From contig JAMCRJ010000059.1 of the NCBI GenBank assembly GCA_023381645.1, positions 1 through 9,038 of the forward strand: DNA of 9,038 bases, given 5' to 3'. Below are positions 1 to 9,038 of this stretch, piece by piece. The DNA comes from Gammaproteobacteria bacterium (GTDB taxonomy: Bacteria; Pseudomonadota; Gammaproteobacteria; Acidithiobacillales; Acidithiobacillaceae). The notes under the pieces are model-generated. The model made no database searches, was not told where the DNA came from, and saw only the letters and a list, made by a program, of their open reading frames with translations. The translations under genes were made by a program, and so were the position numbers. Numbering within the stretch: position 1 is the first letter of the stretch; each line of letters begins with the position of its first letter.

Positions 1-244
1 GATGTCCCATGGCCCCGTCGGCAGTGGGCATGATATCAGGATGCCCGGGCTTGGTCCTAGCGGGGACGATGGCTATGGGGACTGGAGCGCCGGTCCTGTC
101 CACCCCAGTCTCTACGCCCTCTGGGCGTCGGGCGCTGGTAGCATTGAAATGCTCGTTGGTTCTGGGGCCGGGGCCATTGGATAAGACAGTAGTGCGGTGC
201 TTTTTTCCGGTCGAGTTCGCTGGCGTTCATAAAAGCGTCATATT

Positions 245-278
245 TGGGGGGTATTCTCGGATTCGGGCACGCCCCCCA
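245..278. repeat. Inverted repeat TGGGGGG / CCCCCCA
   Basis: A perfect 7-bp inverted repeat, TGGGGGG at 245-251 and CCCCCCA at 272-278, is separated by 20 bases. It lies about 20 bases upstream of the GTG start at 301, in its likely leader. There is no following T-run, so it is not a classical rho-independent terminator. It could be a leader hairpin, an operator half-site pair or chance in GC-rich DNA; the sequence alone does not decide. Confidence 0.4.
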
Positions 279-289
279 TCAATTGACTC

Positions 290-293
290 GGAG
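290..293 (+). promoter_or_regulatory. Ribosome binding site for the GTG start at 301
   Basis: GGAG at 290-293 sits seven bases before GTG 301. This is why I place the start there rather than at the TTG further upstream at 244, which has no purine-rich motif before it. Confidence 0.5.
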
Positions 294-300
294 ACCGGTC

Positions 301-549
301 GTGGAACTCAACCCATTGCAAACCCGCGTGGCGAAAGTCTATCAGGAGGGCCTATATGCCGGTATCGGCACTAGGGAGGATGCCCGGATTACCCACGACG
401 CGTTGTTTTTGTTCCTGCTCCAGGAAGCGGAGGGGTGCGTCGACCTGGATGTCTTAGAGAGTCATGTCGCCGTGATCAGTGAACATCTGCAGGATTTTCT
501 GGATGAACTGGCAACGACAATAGCGAACGCCGCGGAAGATTCCCTCTGA
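301..549 (+). CDS. Small hypothetical protein, 82 aa
   Basis: I do not recognise this protein. It is 82 residues long, acidic, and rich in Leu, Glu, Asp and Ala, with an alternating hydrophobic pattern in its second half (DLDVLESHVAVISEHLQDFL) that suggests amphipathic helices. There is no signal peptide, membrane segment or Cys/His metal-binding pattern. It starts with GTG preceded by GGAG at good spacing. It is followed after 55 bases by a second small gene and then by xfp on the same strand, so all three may share a transcript. A small helical partner or regulatory protein is possible, but that is only inferred from size and place. The upstream in-frame TTG at 244 would add 19 residues and is less likely. 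Confidence 0.55.
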   Translation: MELNPLQTRVAKVYQEGLYAGIGTREDARITHDALFLFLLQEAEGCVDLDVLESHVAVISEHLQDFLDELATTIANAAEDSL

Positions 550-604
550 CGGCGGTTAACCCTAAGCATTGAACTCTACTTTTCCACATAGAGGAGATAC
601 ACTG

Positions 605-745
605 ATGTCCGAAGACAGTCAGGAAATCCAGCATCATCAGGTAGCAGGCGAGCCACGGATGCCTGCGGAGGAACGCTACTGCATGATCGCTGAAGCCGCT
701 TATTTCATCGCCGATGAGGGGCGGCAGGCGGATGGCGAAAACTGA
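605..745 (+). CDS. Short DUF2934-like protein, 46 aa
   Basis: This 46-residue gene has a strong ribosome binding site (GAGGAG at 591-596, eight bases before ATG). Its middle, [24 protein letters not shown] at residues 23-46, matches the start of the DUF2934 pattern, in which an I-A-x-x-A-Y stretch is followed by a G-R and then usually by a D-W-x-x-A-E segment. Here the protein ends before that second segment, so it is either a short member or truncated at its 3' end. DUF2934 proteins are small, soluble and of unknown function. It stands 65 bases upstream of xfp on the same strand and is probably cotranscribed. The family call rests on a short motif read by eye; the gene call rests mostly on the ribosome binding site. 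Confidence 0.55.
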
Positions 746-810
746 TTTTCCCATCCCCTGTATGCTCAATCTTCGTCCCACAGTTTTTAGACAACGGAGG
801 ACATCCCACC

Positions 811-3255
811 ATGGTCACTTCCGCTAAAACAGCGACGACAGCTTACGAAGACGAGAACCTCAGCGCTTATGGGCCGACTCGCGCAACCATCCAAGGAACT
901 CCGCTCGCCCCGGAAGAGTTGCGCACAACCGATGCCTACTGGCGAGCCAGTCTCTATCTGTGCCTGGGGATGTTGTACCTCAGGAGCAATCCATTGCTTC
1001 GGGAACCGTTGCGACTGGAACACATAAAACCGCGCTTGCTAGGCCACTGGGGATCGGACGCTGGCCAGTGCTTCACCTATATTCACTTTAACCGGCTGAT
1101 CATCAAGTACGATCTGAACGCGATCTACATCTCCGGCCCCGGTCACGGGGCACCGGCGGTACTGTCCCAGGCATATCTCGAAGGAACCTACTCCGAGATT
1201 TATCCCGACATCCGTGAAGATCTGGTAGGCATGCAGCGCTTCTTCAAGCAGTTTTCCTTCCCCGGGGGCATCGGTAGCCACGCGACTCCGGAAACCCCCG
1301 GCAGCATTCATGAGGGCGGTGAACTTGGTTACAGTGTTTCTCACGCATTTGGAACCGTCTACGATAACCCCGACCTGATCGCCCTAGTCATGGTCGGTGA
1401 TGGCGAAGCGGAGACCGGCCCCTTGGCCACGAGTTGGCATAGCAACAAATTCCTCAATCCGATTACCGATGGGGCGGTGCTGCCGGTGCTCCACCTCAAC
1501 GGCTATAAAATCAACAACCCCACCATTCTGGCGCGCATTAGTCATGCGGAATTGGAGGCGCTATTCGTCGGTTATGGATATACCCCTTACTTCGTGGAGG
1601 GCAGCGATCCAGAGGGCATGCATCAAGCGATGGCCGCCACCATGGAACACTGTGTTCTGGAGATTCGCAAATTCCAGGAACAGGCCCGGCAGAGCGGTGC
1701 GGCTTACCGCCCCCGCTGGCCGATAATCATTCTTCGAAGTCCCAAAGGCTGGACGGCCCCCCGGAAGGTGGACGGGCATTATCTGGAAGGTTTCTGGCGA
1801 GCCCATCAAATCCCTCTCCCGGACGTGGCCACCAACCCAGCCCATCTGAGTCTGTTAGAATCCTGGATGCGCAGTTACCAACCGGAAAAGCACTTTGATG
1901 CGCAAGGGCGACTGATTCCTGAATTGCAAGCTTTGGCGCCCAAGGGGCGGCGGCGCATGAGTGCCAACCCCGTGGCCAATGGGGGTCTGCTGCGCCGCCC
2001 TCTGGATATGCCTGACTTCCGCACGTTCTCCGTGGAGATCGAAAAAGCCGGAGGAACCCTGGCTGGCAACGTGCCCACGCTGGGAAATTTCCTTCGGGAG
2101 GTCATGCGGCTGAATATGCAGAACTTCCGCGTCTTCGGTCCGGACGAGACCCAATCCAACAAACTCACAGCCCTTTATGAGGTCACCCAAAAAGTCTGGC
2201 TCGGGGAATATTTCCCGGAAGATGCCGACGGCGGCGAACTGGCCTTGCAGGGACGGGTGATGGAAATGCTCAGCGAGCATACGATAGAAGGATGGCTGGA
2301 AGGTTATCTGCTGAGCGGGCGGCACGGGCTCATCAATAGCTACGAGCCGTTCATCCACATCATTGACTCCATGTTCAACCAGCACGCCAAATGGCTGGAA
2401 AAATGTAACGCACTGCCCTGGCGGGCCGATGTGGCGTCACTCAACCTGCTGATGACCGGACTGGTCTGGCGGCAGGACCACAATGGTTTTACGCATCAGG
2501 ATCCTGGTTTTCTCGATGTGGTGGCTAACAAGAGCCCCAGCGTGGTGCGCATCTATCTTCCGCCGGATGCCAACTGCCTGCTTTCCGTTGCCGATCATTG
2601 CCTGAAAAGCGTCAATTACGTCAACGTGATCGTCGCGGACAAGCAAAAGAATCTGCAGTACCTGGACATGGAGGCGGCCGTGGCGCACTGCACAAGGGGC
2701 GCTGGCATCTGGAGCTGGGCGAGCAATGACCAGGGGGTTGAACCTGATGTGGTCATGGTGAGTTGCGGTGACGTGCCGACTCTGGAGTCTCTGGCCGCCA
2801 CTGCCCTACTGCGTCAGCACGTGCCCGACATCAAGGTTCGATTCGTGAATGTGGTGGACTTGTTCAAATTGGTACCACATACCGAACACGCACACGGGAT
2901 GACGGATCGTGAGTTCGAGGCGCTGTTCACTTCCAGCCAGCCCGTGATCTTCAACTTCCACTCCTACCCGTGGCTCATCCACCGATTAACCTACCGGCGA
3001 CCCGGACAGCACCATATTCATGTGCGCGGTTACAAAGAGAAAGGCAATATCAGCACGCCCCTGGAACTCGCGATCCTGAATCAGACGGATCGTTTCAGTC
3101 TGGCCATTGACGCCATTGACCGAATACCCCGCCTCTGCGACACGGGGTCCAGTGTGCGCGAGACACTGCTTGATCAACAGTTCGCCTGTAAGAACCATGC
3201 CTACGAATTTGGGGTGGATCGCCAAGATATCACGGATTGGAAGTGGCCGTTTTGA
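811..3255 (+). CDS. xfp: Phosphoketolase (xylulose 5-phosphate / fructose 6-phosphate)
   Basis: This thiamine-diphosphate enzyme cleaves xylulose 5-phosphate (and often fructose 6-phosphate) with phosphate to give acetyl phosphate plus glyceraldehyde 3-phosphate (or erythrose 4-phosphate). The protein has 814 residues, full length for the family. Seen in the sequence: GPGHGAP at 109-115, a Gly/His-rich loop at 152-181 containing [11 protein letters not shown], the thiamine-diphosphate motif GDGEAETGP at 196-204, [10 protein letters not shown] at 230-239, [10 protein letters not shown] at 443-452 carrying the expected catalytic Glu, [11 protein letters not shown] at 504-514, and [11 protein letters not shown] at 556-566 with conserved histidines. 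No key motif is missing. The ATG has GGAGG at 796-800. Upstream small genes may be cotranscribed; downstream lies a perfect inverted repeat and a transposase scar. Which sugar phosphate is preferred cannot be told from the sequence. Confidence 0.97.
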
Positions 3256-3292
3256 TAATGGCTGAAATATTGACAGCGCGATCAGCCATTGT
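3255..3292. terminator. Inverted repeat just after xfp, possible terminator-like hairpin
   Basis: AATGGCTGA at 3257-3265 and TCAGCCATT at 3282-3290 are perfect reverse complements, with a 16-base loop. The stem extends to 11 pairs if a G-U pair is allowed (3255-3265 with 3282-3292). It starts at the last base of the xfp stop codon. There is no T-run after it, so it does not fit a rho-independent terminator well. It may protect the 3' end of the xfp transcript, weakly attenuate read-through, or be a remnant linked to the insertion sequence that follows. Confidence 0.4.
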
Positions 3293-3301
3293 GGGCCTTA
3301 A

Positions 3302-3617
3302 CTTCCCCATCAGCCGCTCCGCACTGACGGCCTGGCGGCGCTGCGGGTCCTGGCCGCGACGCGGCACCATGATGGTCGCCTCAGACCTTCGGAGCAGGCC
3401 GGAGAATGGTTGCCTTGGGATGCACATCGCCATCGGCAATCTCAAGGCTTACCTGTTGGGCACGTTCCACGGGGTCTCCGGCCGGTATCCGCAGGAATAT
3501 CTCAACGAGTTCGTCTACCGGTTCAACCGGCGCTTTCGGGAAGCGGAGATCCCCCTGCGCCTGCTCAATGCGTGCATGGACCATAGACCCATCCGATTGG
3601 CGGATGAGACAGGTTAA
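3302..3617 (+). pseudogene. IS1595 (ISXO2-like) transposase, 3' fragment with frameshift
   Basis: Only the C-terminal third of a DDE-type transposase remains. It reads first in the frame after the stop at 3299-3301 (…LRTDGLAALRVL…, then …EQAGEWLPW ending at 3418) and then, one base later, in the next frame (HIAIGNLKAYLLGTFHGVSG, then EYLNEFVYRFNRRF and PLRLLNACMDH) to the stop at 3615-3617. One extra base at about 3418-3420 explains the switch: removing it gives a continuous WLPWVHIAIGNLK, the usual text of ISXO2-like transposases. RTDG and GNLK fit the second Asp and the Asn/Lys of the DDNK-type active site. The family is about 300 residues long; here about 105 remain, with no zinc ribbon or first Asp. 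It is certainly non-functional. I could not find the element's terminal repeats. It separates xfp from the oxidoreductase operon. Confidence 0.85.
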
Positions 3618-3696
3618 GAGGCATATATATGAATGCCTTCCTCCCAGTTTGCGTTGCCAAAAATGTTGGCGTAGCCTCGACCGGAGGGTTGGCATC
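3618..3696 (+). promoter_or_regulatory. Leader with dyads before the oxidoreductase operon; possible promoter
   Basis: This AT-richer stretch contains AGGCAT/ATGCCT (3619-3624 and 3633-3638), a TATATAT run at 3624-3630 that could act as a -10 element, and GCCAA/TTGGC (3656-3660 and 3666-3670, with a second TTGGC at 3689-3693). CCTCC at 3640-3644 is complementary to the GGAGG at 3683-3687 and could mask it. A matching -35 is weak (TTGGCG at 3597-3602, with a 19 to 21 base gap). This is the natural place for the operon promoter, but the assignment is inferred from position and composition. Confidence 0.25.
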
Positions 3697-3723
3697 ATGA
3701 TTCGGTTAGGCAAGGAAGGCGGC

Positions 3724-4299
3724 ATGATCGAAATTCGTATCCATGGACGGGGTGGACAAGGCAATGTAGTGGCGGCCTATGTGCTGGCCACCGCCGCCAT
3801 CGGTCAAGGGCTTTTTGCACAGGCGTTTCCCGCCTTCGGCGCGGAGCGCCGGGGAGCCCCGGTGGCCGCTTTCGTACGCATTGCAGAGACGCCCATCCGC
3901 CGTCGTTGTCAGGTGGCTCAACCTGCCTTCGTCATCATCCAGGACGAAACTCTGGCCGCGCTGCCGGACACTCTCGCCGGCCTCGCGTCGGAAGGGGGCG
4001 TGATGATCAATTCCCAGCGCGATTCGCGGGCTCTTTCGGACACCTTCGGGCGGGCTACCTATACGTTGCCCGCCACCCGTCTCTCGCTCGAAGCCCTTGG
4101 TCGTCCCATGCCCAATACGGCCCTGTTGGCCGCCTTTCTCACCCTGACGGAGCTGTTGCCGGTCGCCGGACTCAAGGATGCCCTGGCGCAGCGCTTCAGG
4201 GGCGAAGTGCTGGCCCACAATCTTGCACTGGTCTGCCAGGTGGCAGACGCGACGCCACACGGCATATGGAAGGAGCTGGTGCATGCGGCAAGCGCTTGA
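3724..4299 (+). CDS. porG: Pyruvate/2-oxoacid:ferredoxin oxidoreductase, gamma subunit
   Basis: Gamma subunit of a four-domain-type 2-oxoacid:ferredoxin oxidoreductase, the cytoplasmic enzyme that interconverts a 2-oxoacid and CoA with acyl-CoA, CO2 and reduced ferredoxin. With 191 residues it has the usual length. It shows the N-terminal IRIHGRGGQGNVVAA (residues 4-18) and the family signature FPAFGAERRGAPVAAFVRI (about 35-53), where the subunit helps form the CoA site. AAGGA at 3712-3716 lies seven bases before ATG 3724, and the family alignment begins there. An in-frame ATG at 3697, with GGAGGG at 3683-3688, would add nine residues and is a real alternative. The end overlaps the alpha start by 17 bases, which implies translational coupling. 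Substrate (pyruvate or another 2-oxoacid) is not settled by this subunit. Confidence 0.92.
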   Translation: MIEIRIHGRGGQGNVVAAYVLATAAIGQGLFAQAFPAFGAERRGAPVAAFVRIAETPIRRRCQVAQPAFVIIQDETLAALPDTLAGLASEGGVMINSQRDSRALSDTFGRATYTLPATRLSLEALGRPMPNTALLAAFLTLTELLPVAGLKDALAQRFRGEVLAHNLALVCQVADATPHGIWKELVHAASA

Positions 4300-5470
4300 A
4301 GGTTCTCAGGCCATCGCCCGCGCAGTGGCTCTGTGCCGGCCACAGGTGGTGGCCGCCTATCCCATTACGCCGCAGACCCACATCGTCGAACACATCGCCA
4401 AACTCGTAGCAGACGACAAGTTCCATTGCGAACTCGTGAGCGTGGAAAGCGAATTTTCCGCCGCCTCGGTAGTGCTGGGTGCGGTCTGCGCCGGCTCTCG
4501 CGCCTACACCGCCAGCGCCTCCCAAGGAATTCTGCTGATGAGCGAAGTCCTCTTCAACATCTCCGGGCTGCGTGTGCCCCTGGTGCTCACCTGCGCAAAC
4601 CGGGCGGTTTCCGCGCCGCTTTCCATTTGGAATGATCAGCAAGATTCCATGGCCGTGCGCGATGCGGGTTGGATCCAGATTTACTGCGCGGATAACCAGG
4701 AGGCGGTGGATGCGACCATTCAGGCCTTTCGCATCGCCGAGCGCTGCGAACTGCCGGTGATGGTGTGCGTGGATGGGTTCACCCTGACCCATACCCTGGA
4801 GCCGCTGGAATTGCCGGACCAGGAACTGGTCGACGGCTTCCTGCCGCCCTACCACTTCTCCCGTGCCCTGGATCCGCTGGCTCCGCTTTCCATGGGAACA
4901 CTCGTTGCACCGGAGTATTTCACCGAGGCGCGCCACCTGCATCATGCGGCATTGCTCGCCGCTGAAAAGGAGATCGTGGCGGCGGCACGGGATTGGGCAG
5001 CCGCATGTGGGCGGGAACAGGCGCCGCTTGTGCGGGTGGACGGCCCCGCTGATGCGAAGATCGGTATTCTCACATTGGGATCTGTGTTCGGCACGCTGCT
5101 GGATGCGCGTGATCAGTTTCCGGGGCTGCCGGTGAAACTCATGCATCTGCGTTGCTTCCGTCCGTTTCCGGTGGAGGCCCTGCGGGCCGCCTGTGCCGGG
5201 CTTCATGACCTCATCGTGCTGGAGCGGGCCATCGCACCCGGCGCCGACGGCATCGTGGGGGCAGAAATGCGCTCGGCCCTTGCGGACACCGACAGCCCTC
5301 CGCGGATCCACAATTTCGCTGCAGGTCTGGGCGGTCGGGATGTACCATTGGCAATCTATCCGCGTCTGCTTGAGGCGATCAAAAAACCGCACCCGCGCAT
5401 GAGCGCGATCGACCTCCGGCCCGAACTGCTGCCAGCCGATTCACCAGTTCGCCAGGAGGTTGCCCCTTGA
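4283..5470 (+). CDS. porA: Pyruvate/2-oxoacid:ferredoxin oxidoreductase, alpha subunit
   Basis: Alpha subunit of the same complex, 395 residues. It carries YPITPQT at 26-32, the substrate and thiamine-pyrimidine region typical of PorA, then ESEFSAASVVLGA around 55-67 with the conserved Glu, TASASQGILLMSE at 76-88, and NRAVSAPLSIWNDQQDS at 106-122. The C-terminal half has the transketolase-C-like fold expected (ILTLGSVFGTLLDA, then LRCFRPFP). AAGGAG at 4270-4275 sits seven bases before ATG 4283, inside the gamma gene. The stop overlaps the beta start by four bases. The NDQQDS segment and overall length resemble pyruvate-type enzymes, so pyruvate synthase/oxidase activity is most likely; 2-oxoglutarate or branched-chain substrates are less likely but not excluded. 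Confidence 0.93.
   Translation: MRQALEGSQAIARAVALCRPQVVAAYPITPQTHIVEHIAKLVADDKFHCELVSVESEFSAASVVLGAVCAGSRAYTASASQGILLMSEVLFNISGLRVPLVLTCANRAVSAPLSIWNDQQDSMAVRDAGWIQIYCADNQEAVDATIQAFRIAERCELPVMVCVDGFTLTHTLEPLELPDQELVDGFLPPYHFSRALDPLAPLSMGTLVAPEYFTEARHLHHAALLAAEKEIVAAARDWAAACGREQAPLVRVDGPADAKIGILTLGSVFGTLLDARDQFPGLPVKLMHLRCFRPFPVEALRAACAGLHDLIVLERAIAPGADGIVGAEMRSALADTDSPPRIHNFAAGLGGRDVPLAIYPRLLEAIKKPHPRMSAIDLRPELLPADSPVRQEVAP
5454..5459 (+). promoter_or_regulatory. Ribosome binding site deciding the TTG start of porB
   Basis: A perfect AGGAGG lies seven bases before TTG 5467, which overlaps the porA stop as TTGA. The first in-frame ATG, at 5497, has no comparable motif. TTG is therefore the better start. 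Confidence 0.75.
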
Positions 5471-6450
5471 CGCCACAGACGCTGCACGATCTTCGCATGG
5501 CCCAGCCCCGCTTTCAGGGGCTCGAAGCGGGTCACCGGGCCTGCCAGGGCTGCGGGCAGGCCCTGGCGGCGCGGCTCACCCTGGAAGAATCGGGGCCTGA
5601 CGTGGTGGTTGCCAACGCCACCGGCTGCCTTGAAGTTTTCACCACCGCCTGGCCGGATTCTGCTTGGCGGGTGCCCTGGCTGCATTCCCTGTTCGCAAAC
5701 ACCGGCGCCGTGGCGGCAGGCATGGAGGCGGCGCTGAAGATGCAGGGCCGCGACATCAAGGTGCTGGCCTTCGCGGGTGACGGTGGCACCTTCGACATCG
5801 GTTTCCAGGCGCTTTCCGGCATGCTCGAGCGTGGGCACAATGTGCTCTTCATCTGCTACGACAACGAAGCCTACATGAACACGGGTGTACAGCGTTCCAG
5901 TTCCACGCCCCATGCCGCCGCTACAACCACATCCCCCGCAGGCGTGGCGCGCATGGGCAAGCGCCACCTGAAAAAAGATATTCTTTCCATCATAGCCGCC
6001 CATCACATTCCTTATGCAGCGACCGCATCGGTCGCCTATCCTGCCGATTTACGGAAGAAGGTGCGGCGCGGCATTGAGGTGGAAGGGCCGAGCTTCCTGC
6101 AGATCCATTCCCCTTGCCCCCTCGGCTGGGGTCATGGCAGTGAACTTTCCATCGAGGTGGCACGCCTTGCGGTGCAGAGCGGGATGTTCCCGCTCATCGA
6201 ACTGGAGCAGGGCGCACTGGTCGGGGCCATGCCGATCCGGCAGATTCGTCCGGTGGCGGACTACCTCAAGCTCCAGGGACGCTTCAAGCACCTCTTCGCC
6301 GGCGACGCCCTGGCCCGAGAAGAACTCGCCCATCTCCAGGCCCTCGCCGATCAAAACATAGAGGATTATGCCTTGAAAGCGGAAACTGCTGACCCCTTCG
6401 ACACGGAAGGCGCGGATACGGTGCGCCGCGGCGGCCTCCGTTCTACCTAA
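5467..6450 (+). CDS. porB: Pyruvate/2-oxoacid:ferredoxin oxidoreductase, beta subunit
   Basis: Beta subunit, 327 residues, which binds thiamine diphosphate and the proximal [4Fe-4S] cluster. The cluster ligands are visible: CQGC at 26-29, Cys54 in ATGCLEV, and Cys217 in HSPCPLGW, the usual PorB set of four. The thiamine-diphosphate/Mg motif runs from GDGGTFDIG (104-112) to DNEAYMNTGVQRSS (132-145), a strong PorB signature. The start is TTG, overlapping the porA stop codon by four bases and preceded by AGGAGG, so alpha and beta are tightly coupled. The TAA stop provides the first bases of the ribosome binding site of the next gene. All catalytic features appear intact; it would act in the cytoplasm with the gamma and alpha subunits. 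The electron-carrying delta (ferredoxin-like) subunit is not a separate gene but appears in the C-terminus of the next protein. Confidence 0.94.
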   Translation: MTPQTLHDLRMAQPRFQGLEAGHRACQGCGQALAARLTLEESGPDVVVANATGCLEVFTTAWPDSAWRVPWLHSLFANTGAVAAGMEAALKMQGRDIKVLAFAGDGGTFDIGFQALSGMLERGHNVLFICYDNEAYMNTGVQRSSSTPHAAATTTSPAGVARMGKRHLKKDILSIIAAHHIPYAATASVAYPADLRKKVRRGIEVEGPSFLQIHSPCPLGWGHGSELSIEVARLAVQSGMFPLIELEQGALVGAMPIRQIRPVADYLKLQGRFKHLFAGDALAREELAHLQALADQNIEDYALKAETADPFDTEGADTVRRGGLRST

Positions 6451-6460
6451 GGAGAACGTT

Positions 6461-8155
6461 ATGCCCGTCATGACCCCCGGTGCCTTCGCTTACCCCGCCA
6501 CCGCTCTGGCATTCAAAACTGGTAGCTGGCGTACTATGCGGCCTCTCTACCAGCCGCGCCCGGCACCCTGCCACAGCGGCTGCCCGGCGGGAGAAAATCC
6601 CTGCGACTATCTCGCCCAGGTGGCGGAAGAGGATTTCCAGGCCGCCTGGGAAACCCTGGTGGCGACAAATCCCTTACCCGCCATCACGGGGCGGGTATGC
6701 GACCACCCTTGCGAAAGCGCCTGCAACCGGGGCCGTTTTGATGCCGCCATCGCCATTCACAACGTGGAACGTTTGCTGGGGGACGAAGCCATCCGGGCAG
6801 GGTGGGGCTATCCCCTACCGCCGCTCGTCCCCGATGCGCCGAAGGCGGTAGTGGTGGGGGCTGGTCCTGCGGGACTTTCCTGTGCCTACCATCTCCGCCG
6901 GCTGGGCGTGCAGGCCACTCTCATGGAGCGGCTGCCGGTTGCCGGTGGCACTTTGCGCATGGCCTTGCCGGGCTATCGCCTGCCGCGCGAAGTGCTGGAC
7001 GCGGAAATCGAACGGCTTCTTGCTGCCGGAATCAATTTTCTGCCAAACACGGCACTGGGGCGGGAGGCCTCTGTTGCGGAGCTAAGGCAGGAGTACAACG
7101 CGGTCTTTCTTGGCCCAGGCCGTCAACGTCCGCGTCCGTGGGATGTGGACGGACGTACCCCCAGCGACCTGCATCCGGCGCTCACGTTGTTGCAGGAATG
7201 GGTAGCCTTCGGCACCATGCCCGAGATTCGCTCTGCCGTGATCGTGGGCGGCGGCAACAGTGCCGTCGACATGGCACGCGTACTCGCACGTGCCGGGGCA
7301 CGAGTGCACCTCGTCACCCACGACGCGCTGCCGGGTCCCGACGTTACACGGGAGGCGGCCATGAAAGCCGCTCCGCGCGACATCCGCCAGGCGCAGGAGG
7401 AAGGCGTCATCCTGCATACGGAGCACGGTGTGCACCGCCTGATTCTGCGCGGCGAGAAGGTAGTAGGGGTGGAACTCGTCCGCATGAAAAAACTGGCGCG
7501 GGACAACGGCCGATTCGACATCGTCCAGTTCGAAGGTACCGAAACGGTGCTCCATGTCGATCAGGTGATTCCCGCCGTCGGCCAGGAAGTGGAACCAAAG
7601 GGCATGGAAAATCTGCTTGGTGAGCAGCACTTTTTCCCCGTGGATAAGGCAGGACGCTTGGCCGGACAGGCCGGCCTCTTCGTCGGCGGCGATGCTCGCG
7701 AGGGTGCTTGGGGCACCGTGAGCGGCGCTGTGGGGGATGGTAGACGCGCAGCTGCCGTCATTCACGCCCATTTGCTGGGCGAATTCCATGATGAACCGGA
7801 GCGGGAACTCCAGGTGATCGGCATCGCCGAACTCAACCTCCACTATTTCGAACAGGCTCCGCGCGCGGAAGAACCCCTGCTGCCGCCGGAAAACCGCGTG
7901 GGCAGTGCCGAAATCGCTGGTGGTTTGGCGACGGAGCAGGTCATTGCCGAGGCCAACCGCTGTTTCTCCTGCGGCAACTGCATGGCCTGTGACAACTGCT
8001 GGACACTCTGCCCGGATCAGGCCGTGCTCAAAACCCGCGAATTCGCCGCCGACGGCTCGCATTACCGTATCGATTACGACTATTGCAAGGGCTGCGGCTT
8101 GTGCGCCCACGAATGCCCGGTGGGCTATATCGCCATGGTATCGGAGCCGTCCTGA
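6461..8155 (+). CDS. GltD-like NAD(P)H flavoprotein fused to ferredoxin domain
   Basis: This 564-residue protein resembles the glutamate synthase small subunit family, but its context says it serves the oxidoreductase. Domains in order: an N-terminal iron-sulfur domain (Cys37, Cys41, Cys48, then Cys80, Cys84, Cys88; Fer4_20 type); an FAD-binding site VVGAGPAGLS at 131-140; an NAD(P)H site VGGGNSAVD at 262-270; the second FAD motif FVGGDA at 407-412 with AVGDGRRAA at 423-431; and a C-terminal two-cluster ferredoxin domain, CxxCxxCxxxCP at 507-518 preceded by CFSC at 501-504, and CKGCGLCAHECP at 542-553. That last domain matches PorD. AAGGAGA at 6449-6455 precedes the ATG. It probably moves electrons between NAD(P)H and the PorGAB clusters, replacing a separate delta subunit. 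Glutamate synthesis is unlikely, as no large subunit is present. Confidence 0.9.
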   Translation: MPVMTPGAFAYPATALAFKTGSWRTMRPLYQPRPAPCHSGCPAGENPCDYLAQVAEEDFQAAWETLVATNPLPAITGRVCDHPCESACNRGRFDAAIAIHNVERLLGDEAIRAGWGYPLPPLVPDAPKAVVVGAGPAGLSCAYHLRRLGVQATLMERLPVAGGTLRMALPGYRLPREVLDAEIERLLAAGINFLPNTALGREASVAELRQEYNAVFLGPGRQRPRPWDVDGRTPSDLHPALTLLQEWVAFGTMPEIRSAVIVGGGNSAVDMARVLARAGARVHLVTHDALPGPDVTREAAMKAAPRDIRQAQEEGVILHTEHGVHRLILRGEKVVGVELVRMKKLARDNGRFDIVQFEGTETVLHVDQVIPAVGQEVEPKGMENLLGEQHFFPVDKAGRLAGQAGLFVGGDAREGAWGTVSGAVGDGRRAAAVIHAHLLGEFHDEPERELQVIGIAELNLHYFEQAPRAEEPLLPPENRVGSAEIAGGLATEQVIAEANRCFSCGNCMACDNCWTLCPDQAVLKTREFAADGSHYRIDYDYCKGCGLCAHECPVGYIAMVSEPS

Positions 8156-8160
8156 GGGAG

Positions 8161-8325
8161 ATGCGTGACGGTGCAGCGCGGCGTTATCAGCGCTACCGGG
8201 CAGCCATGCCGGTGATGCGAGCGTTAGTGGCCTATCTCACCGAAAACTGCTGTCGCGGTACCCAGGATTGCGCTTTACCCCGTGAAACCATCCCTTCTTC
8301 GGTCCGCCAAGGAAACCAGCGATGA
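8161..8325 (+). pseudogene. arsR: arsR 3' remnant: As(III)-binding tail without DNA-binding domain
   Basis: In this frame the text RYQRYRAAMPVMRALVAYLT (about 8182-8241) is followed by ENCCRGTQDC (to 8262) and ends at a TGA that overlaps the arsC ATG as ATGA. ALVAYLTENCC followed by a third Cys six residues later is the C-terminal pattern of ArsR from Acidithiobacillus ferrooxidans, whose As(III) ligands are Cys95, Cys96 and Cys102; the spacing here is identical. The helix-turn-helix is absent: only 5 bases separate the upstream stop codon from the ATG at 8161. In another frame, 8165-8179 reads VTVQR, which looks like the end of the wing strand, so a small deletion near 8180 probably broke the frame as well. 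Translation from ATG 8161 could give a 54-residue peptide, but GGGAG directly abuts that ATG with no spacer. Its position before arsC is that of a normal arsR. Confidence 0.75.
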
Positions 8326-8807
8326 AAACCCCGGAAATCCTTTTTCTCTGCACCGGCAACTCCTGCCGTTCCATTCTCGCCGAAGTCACCTTCAATGCGC
8401 TGGCCGGACCGGGCATGCACGCCAGCAGTGCCGGCTGCCATCCGACTGGGTATGTGCATCCGCGCGCCCTGGCTCTGCTGCAACGCGAAGGGTTCCGTAC
8501 CGAAGGCCTGTACAGCAAGTCCTGGGACGACATCCAAAAAACACCGGACATCGTCATCACCTTCTGCGCCAGTGCCGCCGGCGAAACCTGCCCCGCCTAT
8601 CTGGGACCAGCCATCCGCGCCCATTGGGGGGTGGACGACCCCGCCAAGGCAACGGGTAGCGAGGCGGAGATCGAGGCGGCCTTCACCACCGCCTACCAGA
8701 TCTTGCGTCGTCGGATCGAAGCCTTTCTGGCCCTGCCCTGGATACAGGGGGAAGAAAGTGGCGACGTGGCCCTTCAAGCCGAACTGGCGCGCATCGGTGC
8801 GCAGTAA
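8322..8807 (+). CDS. arsC: Arsenate reductase, low-molecular-weight phosphatase type
   Basis: Reduces arsenate to arsenite in the cytoplasm so that it can be exported. The 161-residue protein has the low-molecular-weight tyrosine phosphatase fold: the CX5R loop CTGNSCRS begins at Cys10 with Arg16, the FCASAAGETCP segment provides Cys82 and Cys90 for the disulfide relay of thioredoxin-linked ArsC, and HWGVDDPA at 101-108 carries the general-acid Asp followed by Pro. This set of three cysteines distinguishes it from plain protein tyrosine phosphatases and from the glutaredoxin-linked ArsC. It is slightly longer than the usual 130 to 145 residues, with an acidic C-terminal extension after about residue 140. 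AAGGA at 8309-8313 lies eight bases before the ATG, which overlaps the arsR remnant stop. With arsR broken, its expression probably depends on upstream promoters. Confidence 0.93.
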   Translation: MKTPEILFLCTGNSCRSILAEVTFNALAGPGMHASSAGCHPTGYVHPRALALLQREGFRTEGLYSKSWDDIQKTPDIVITFCASAAGETCPAYLGPAIRAHWGVDDPAKATGSEAEIEAAFTTAYQILRRRIEAFLALPWIQGEESGDVALQAELARIGAQ

Positions 8808-8845
8808 CTTTTCAGACGGCATTCATCCTTTCAGGAGACGTTATC

Positions 8846-9038
8846 ATGACCAAAATCCGTGTTTATGATCCCGCCATGTGCTGCAGTACGGGCGTATGCG
8901 GTCCGACCATAGATCCTGCGCTGGTACGCTTTTCTGCTGACGCGGACTGGGCAAAAGGCCAGGGAATCGATCTGGTACGCTACAACCTCAGCCAGGAACC
9001 CATGGCCTTTGTCCACAATTCGGTGGTGAAACAGTTTT
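8846..9038 (+). CDS. arsD: ArsD arsenic metallochaperone, 5' part
   Basis: ArsD receives As(III) and hands it to the ArsA ATPase of the ArsAB efflux pump; it also has weak repressor activity in some systems. The window ends after 64 of about 120 residues. The visible part matches the family: RVYDPAMCCSTGVCGP, with Cys12, Cys13 and Cys18 at the same positions as the As(III)-binding cysteines of the plasmid R773 protein, then SADADWAKGQGIDLVRYNLS and EPMAFV. AGGAG at 8833-8837 lies eight bases before ATG 8846. The gap after arsC is 38 bases with no hairpin, so the two are likely cotranscribed. In such operons arsA usually follows, just beyond the window. Confidence 0.93.
   Translation, partial: MTKIRVYDPAMCCSTGVCGPTIDPALVRFSADADWAKGQGIDLVRYNLSQEPMAFVHNSVVKQF

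Follow-up and report, generated by a model that had tools for sequence, protein, structure and literature searches.

The arsenic transposon of Acidithiobacillus caldus carries CBS-domain and NADH-oxidase-like genes. Divergent ars operons of Acidithiobacillus ferrooxidans, under the control of an atypical ArsR, were reportedly described by Butcher and Rawlings in 2002. An arsenic transposon of A. caldus, TnAtcArs, is presented in PMC6205960, and arsR, arsC, arsD, arsA and arsB are given as the gene set of the A. caldus arsenic transposon in PMC4443643. AfArsR has a three-cysteine As(III) site, and the peptide NCCHGTRDC is assigned to this protein (PMC11212059); the same peptide is carried by PDB entry 6j05. 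When an ArsR repressor is removed, expression should become constitutive (PMC7965956). In the portions of the literature searched, no case was found in which ars genes are expressed constitutively behind an arsR that is truncated or a pseudogene.

The stretch of DNA analysed here, called the window below, comprises 9,038 nt on the forward strand (positions 1 to 9,038 of contig JAMCRJ010000059.1, assembly GCA_023381645.1) from a member of the Acidithiobacillaceae. All genes assigned to it below lie on its + strand, and its two junctions have no strand. The phosphoketolase and ars parts of the window are Acidithiobacillus-like; L001, one of the two closest ars loci, is a contig of an Acidithiobacillus MAG. 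We consider it quite probable that a foreign block lies between the phosphoketolase gene and the ars operon, that its right end destroyed the ars control region, and that arsR was left as a pseudogene with arsC and arsD as the tail of a POR operon.

At the right end of this block, the GltD-like gene stops with the TGA at 8153-8155 and is followed by only nine bases, GGGAGATGC, before homology to ars sequences sets in (right junction, 8156..8164; base 8164 also matches L001). In a blastn comparison of the window with a set of 80 loci, among the nucleotide matches listed (L001-L019), homology to the two closest loci begins at 8164 (L001, 92.0% identity over 879 columns, 8164-9038) and at 8165 (L004, 92.0% over 559). 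Comparison of window positions 8120-8480 with 29 Acidithiobacillaceae genomes yielded 32 matching places in 26 genomes. The match starts at 8164 or 8165 in 18 of the 32 places, at 8157 in a single one (G031) and later in the remaining 13; none starts before 8157. ArsR was recovered from the 80-locus set by tblastn with the 55-aa translation of 8158-8325, at E 2e-27 (L004) and 6e-27 (L001). The initial annotation had seen a carbon-metabolism operon joined here to a decapitated arsR, and this holds: the POR gene set ends and arsR homology begins at 8164/8165, the stop codon is where it was put, the similarity to ArsR is significant, and the gap, given as about 10 bases, is nine. The junction itself is absent from the 29 family genomes (searched with 8120-8480) and from plasmid records (searched with the whole window; five records matched, in the phosphoketolase part only), and its 28-mer has no match in viral contigs. 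DNA downstream of gltD from relatives closer than about 65% identity was not found, which leaves the POR-side position of the break approximate.

The arsR remnant (8165..8325) begins at ArsR codon V66, which is the start of the wing; codons 1-65, including the helix-turn-helix, are absent. The recognition helix of ArsR presumably ends before codon 66. A second lesion is located about 15 bases into the remnant, where four bases are deleted after 8179, so that codons 66-70 are cut off from the following part and residues 73-119 are readable in another frame (8182-8325). The reading of this sequence as the ArsR wing and C-terminal helix is thus right as regards homology from the wing onwards, but the frame is broken. 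As starts, there are the ATG at 8161, whose ribosome-binding site is badly spaced, and in-frame codons further on, for which none is apparent by eye; with the 5' part missing and four nucleotides deleted, no continuous ArsR frame with a usable start exists. Codons for Cys95, Cys96 and Cys102 are intact in the frame of residues 73-119 and, to judge from the sequence, match the residues that serve AfArsR as its three As(III) ligands (PMC11212059). The remnant therefore appears to retain the As(III)-site codons of an atypical A. ferrooxidans-type ArsR and lacks its helix-turn-helix. It was not recognised by domain search in NCBIfam (E<=0.001) or Pfam (E<=10), probably because of the loss of the helix-turn-helix. 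The remnant is a truncated and frameshifted arsR pseudogene.

The 4-base deletion was seen in none of the Acidithiobacillaceae relatives read (47 loci). A complete wing motif, which by design requires an open frame, was matched in 44 of the 47; many places are included twice, so these represent 26 distinct 220-nt sequences. As for the three unmatched loci, tblastn revealed the codons in L142 and L144 and no arsR match in L147. Compared with L001, the remnant shows 8 synonymous and 2 nonsynonymous codon changes and arsC 27 and 11, respectively. Substitutions in the remnant look no more relaxed than those in arsC, as would agree with a recent event; a constraint that persists is the less likely reason. 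We rejected these changes as proof of either decay or selection, since they are too few.

What has been lost is apparent from related genomes, a comparison already proposed with the initial annotation. An arsR, its match extending to residue 20 or earlier, is located directly upstream of arsC in the 16 nearest loci (L001-L016) and in L019; in L009 and L016 the arsR frame ends a few residues short of the alignment end. Throughout the 80 arsC loci, five of which have arsC near the locus edge, such an arsR lies directly upstream in 53, a partial match in 2, and none within 400 bases in 25. In L001 arsR is complete, with 119 codons, and immediately precedes arsC; its protein matches 6j05, a solved ArsR, over residues 1-118. 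In this locus arsB is divergent from arsR, and a promoter-like TTGACG-17-AATACT is found at 2950-2978, before the arsR start at 3004 (one found against 0.3 expected from shuffled sequence). Blastn (E<=1e-5) finds no counterpart in the window of L001 1-3197, a region including the promoter-like site, and the arsenite-regulated promoter that would stand ahead of arsR thus appears to be gone. On this side the window lacks the divergent arsB, the arsB/arsR promoter region and codons 1-65 of ArsR, in agreement with the loss of arsR promoter, start and helix-turn-helix noted before. Gene order in L001 is arsR-arsC-arsD-arsA, followed by a CBS-domain-like gene and what resembles, by eye, an oxidoreductase gene in pieces; this last one, at L001 6582-7607, would be a pyridine-nucleotide oxidoreductase gene broken into several frames. 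The phosphoketolase gene of L001 is found on the 3' side of the ars cluster and points the other way, which makes more than one event likely.

On the left side, the phosphoketolase gene (XFP, 811..3255; NCBIfam NF003617, E=0) is of Acidithiobacillus type. Among the listed matches and selected regions in the comparison of the window with L101-L118, and in L001, its nucleotide identity is 93.9% over 916-3248 (L001) and 95.3% over 776-3327 (L103, from the same genome as the A. ferrianus locus L009), and its downstream flank matches L103 up to 3327. Window positions 1-724 contain short stretches 72-83% similar to DNA upstream of phosphoketolase genes in relatives; these matches are patchy (e.g. 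19-462 in L117, 508-724 in L106), which suggests a shuffled upstream region. Downstream of XFP lies the 3' third of an IS1595-type element encoding the transposase C-terminus (3319..3624; PF12762, E=1.8e-7; NF033547 at 41.3 bits does not reach its cut-off of 75). Homology to IS1595-type copies starts at 3319 for most copies reaching this end and at 3302 for L149 and L166. Positions 3319-3327 match L103 at 9/9 bases and the copy in L163 at 8/9. From these alignments, the left switch is placed somewhere in 3302..3327, a stretch resembling both the XFP downstream flank and IS1595-type copies. Aligned to the 978-bp copy in L163, the fragment spans positions 673-977, and its end at 3624 lies shortly before porC; it is the 3' part only, with neither a complete transposase nor both ends, and apart from chance words of 13-14 bases the L163 copy matches the window nowhere else. 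Of the two edges of the foreign block, one thus falls within a broken IS and one within a broken arsR. A deletion or an insertion had been invoked for the right end; the junction is confirmed, a single event is not, as two junctions flank a foreign block with an IS1595 fragment.

The block encodes PorC, the gamma subunit of a 2-oxoacid:ferredoxin oxidoreductase (3724..4299; TIGR02175, 167 bits, above the cut-off of 81.1), PorA, the alpha subunit (4284..5470, start approximate; NF040682, 398 bits, below 550), PorB, the beta subunit (5467..6450; NF008819, 377 bits, below 405), and a complete GltD-like FAD oxidoreductase fused to a PorD-type ferredoxin domain (6461..8155; NF009410, 487 bits, below 516). 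The ferredoxin domain occupies residues 505-562 of the last protein (TIGR02179, 69.6 bits, above 60.05). All four frames are intact and follow the order of a PorCAB + GltD/PorD operon, which recurs in all three genomes checked (L188-L190). The GltD-like protein ends at the same residue as P0002, P0003, P0006 and P0008, with P0005 and P0011 running further; truncation of gltD was considered and rejected, as its C-terminus is at the usual residue. The nearest proteins are a metagenome cluster with 51 members (P0002, 99%) and P0003-P0006 (78-79%), and the closest named one comes from Acidiferrobacter (P0008, 74%). No match at E<=1e-50 exists in any of the 29 Acidithiobacillaceae genomes; weaker GltD-like matches of 26-48% identity are present in all 18 genomes reached through loci. 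Sequence past the stop codon is available for 20 of 21 gltD relatives, and the 60 bases there have no common pattern by eye. The 24 loci around gltD relatives contain no arsC or arsR match (E<=1e-3), and no relative of the GltD-like protein or of ArsC was confirmed in viral contigs. The POR genes have a GC content of 63-64%, as against 57% for the phosphoketolase gene and 63.6% for arsC, so it sets the POR block apart from its left neighbour only. We infer that the POR block was acquired horizontally and is foreign to Acidithiobacillus.

To the right of the remnant, arsC and arsD follow in normal operon order, as originally stated, and the arsRCD(A) order is kept with arsR as a remnant only. 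The arsC gene (8322..8807) is intact and encodes an arsenate reductase of the LMWPc fold (PF01451, E=5e-19; TIGR02691, 74.6 bits, below the cut-off of 174.3). From arsD, cut by the window end, the 5' part is present (8846..9038; PF06953, E=2.6e-27; NF033727, 88.4 bits on the partial sequence, just below 90). Eight bases before the ATG of arsC, inside the old arsR 3' end, there is an AAGGA ribosome-binding site, so translation of arsC need not depend on arsR. Between gltD and arsC, a scan for the sigma-70 consensus, to which promoters of acidophiles need not conform, gave no promoter-like site, and no terminator-like one lies there either. A short hairpin followed by T-rich sequence is located at the arsC end, 8787-8812 (one terminator-like hit, 1.2 expected by chance). 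Since the gltD-arsC interval is free of promoter- and terminator-like sites and the promoter region is gone, read-through is the simplest reading: most likely, arsC and arsD would be transcribed as the tail of the POR transcript, with local arsenite control lost. Against this reading, no promoter-like site that could supply the read-through was detected upstream of porC (3200-3800) either. An unlinked ArsR may be present elsewhere in the host genome. Matches to 8120-8480 occur at two separate places, some of them short, in G002, G003, G012, G020 and G021 among the 29 genomes. In the MAG G002 (L002, L004; also C177), arsR-arsC occurs at more than one place and the ArsR proteins encoded there clearly differ, which makes an unlinked ArsR plausible in this group.

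It is rather improbable that arsC and arsD are instead driven, without read-through, by a weak promoter of their own inside the remnant or the gltD 3' end. Weak promoters within coding ends are known in general and consensus scans miss non-sigma-70 promoters, but nothing promoter-like was found from 7900 to arsC, and the lone site in 7900-9038, at 8841 (0.4 expected by chance), lies past arsC. The ATG at 8161, inside the nine junction bases, opens a 54-aa frame (8161..8325) in register with ArsR residues 73-119 in spite of the deletion that breaks the original frame, and the three metal-ligand codons are intact. A 10-residue peptide over the same site in AfArsR binds As(III) (PMC11212059). A real small protein, an ArsR that has kept the C-terminal helix but not the DNA-binding domain, could buffer arsenite, hand it on to ArsD or pair with an unlinked ArsR. 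We regard this as very improbable: GGGAG stands immediately before the ATG, nearer than a normal ribosome-binding site would, which leaves the start poorly placed for translation, an in-frame start by chance is not rare, and substitutions are too few to show selection. No homologue of the ORF was found in the protein database, a weak test as gene callers may skip such an ORF, and the 16 nearest loci and L019 carry an arsR reaching residue 20 or earlier. A conserved intact gene for the 54-aa protein, which would have spoken against the initial annotation, was accordingly rejected, and the ORF is probably a chance frame and not a gene. Least credible of all is an adaptive fusion, by which a metabolic operon would have taken in arsC and the gene of the ArsD chaperone, so that both are produced along with POR, the 54-residue relic being translated as an arsenite-binding peptide that feeds or spares ArsD.

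A further alternative is an assembly chimera, in which a contig carrying the POR operon of some other acidophile was fused in silico with Acidithiobacillus contigs and arsR is unbroken in every cell. It would account for a junction present in no other record searched (plasmid records, 29 family genomes, viral contigs), for the want of a close GltD homologue in these genomes (0/29 at E<=1e-50), for the difference in GC between the POR genes and XFP, and for the up to 26 bases (3302-3327) resembling both parents at the left junction. Chimeric joins, though, usually need an exact shared word of assembler k-mer length, and the longest left overlap aligned near-identical to both parents is 9 bases. 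Acidithiobacillus-type sequence at both ends of the POR block would require two mis-joins, the 4-nt deletion absent from the relatives read sits about 15 bases from the right junction, and GC of arsC is no different from that of the POR genes. The private deletion, the two-sided Acidithiobacillus flanks and the short near-exact left overlap favour a real rearrangement, and we consider a chimera unlikely.

The preferred reading, a real rearrangement that is well defined and probably recent, can be put as a series of steps. An acquired block consisting of the IS1595 3' fragment and porC-porA-porB-gltD/D (about 3302/3327 to 8164) would have come to lie between the phosphoketolase gene and the ars operon. 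At its right end, the ars control region (arsB side, promoter region, ArsR codons 1-65) is gone, and the leftover 3' part of arsR, frameshifted as well, is a pseudogene. The remnant may persist as the carrier of the arsC ribosome-binding site and leader. Both arsC and arsD would then most likely be transcribed as the POR operon tail, beyond local ArsR control and not arsenic-inducible from this locus. The acidophile group concerned is used for biomining, and arsenic is a common stress there. Should the arrangement be real and expressed, carbon metabolism and not arsenic would govern arsenate reduction. The locus offers a readable snapshot of a resistance operon losing its regulator and ending up behind an unrelated one. 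The junction looks like a clear but fairly ordinary genome scar, and its effect on expression is a prediction.

While rearrangements of this kind are familiar, this particular fusion is without precedent in the sequences and literature searched. The POR block shares its gene order, porC-porA-porB plus the GltD-like/PorD fusion, with several Gammaproteobacteria at 41-78% protein identity (L188-L190); it differs from their operons in what follows, as by eye no common pattern exists in the 60 bases past gltD (20 of 21 relatives) and none of the 24 loci has an arsC or arsR match. The likeness to TnAtcArs is seen in L001, where arsR-arsC-arsD-arsA precede the CBS-domain-like gene and the by-eye oxidoreductase in pieces, whereas the window stops within arsD and lacks an intact arsR. 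Another close system is the divergent chromosomal ars operon of A. ferrooxidans: the remnant is the 3' part of an arsR of the AfArsR type, with the three-cysteine site, directly ahead of arsC, and arsB of L001 is divergent from arsR in the same way. In the window, by contrast, codons 1-65, the promoter region and arsB have given way to a foreign POR gene set.
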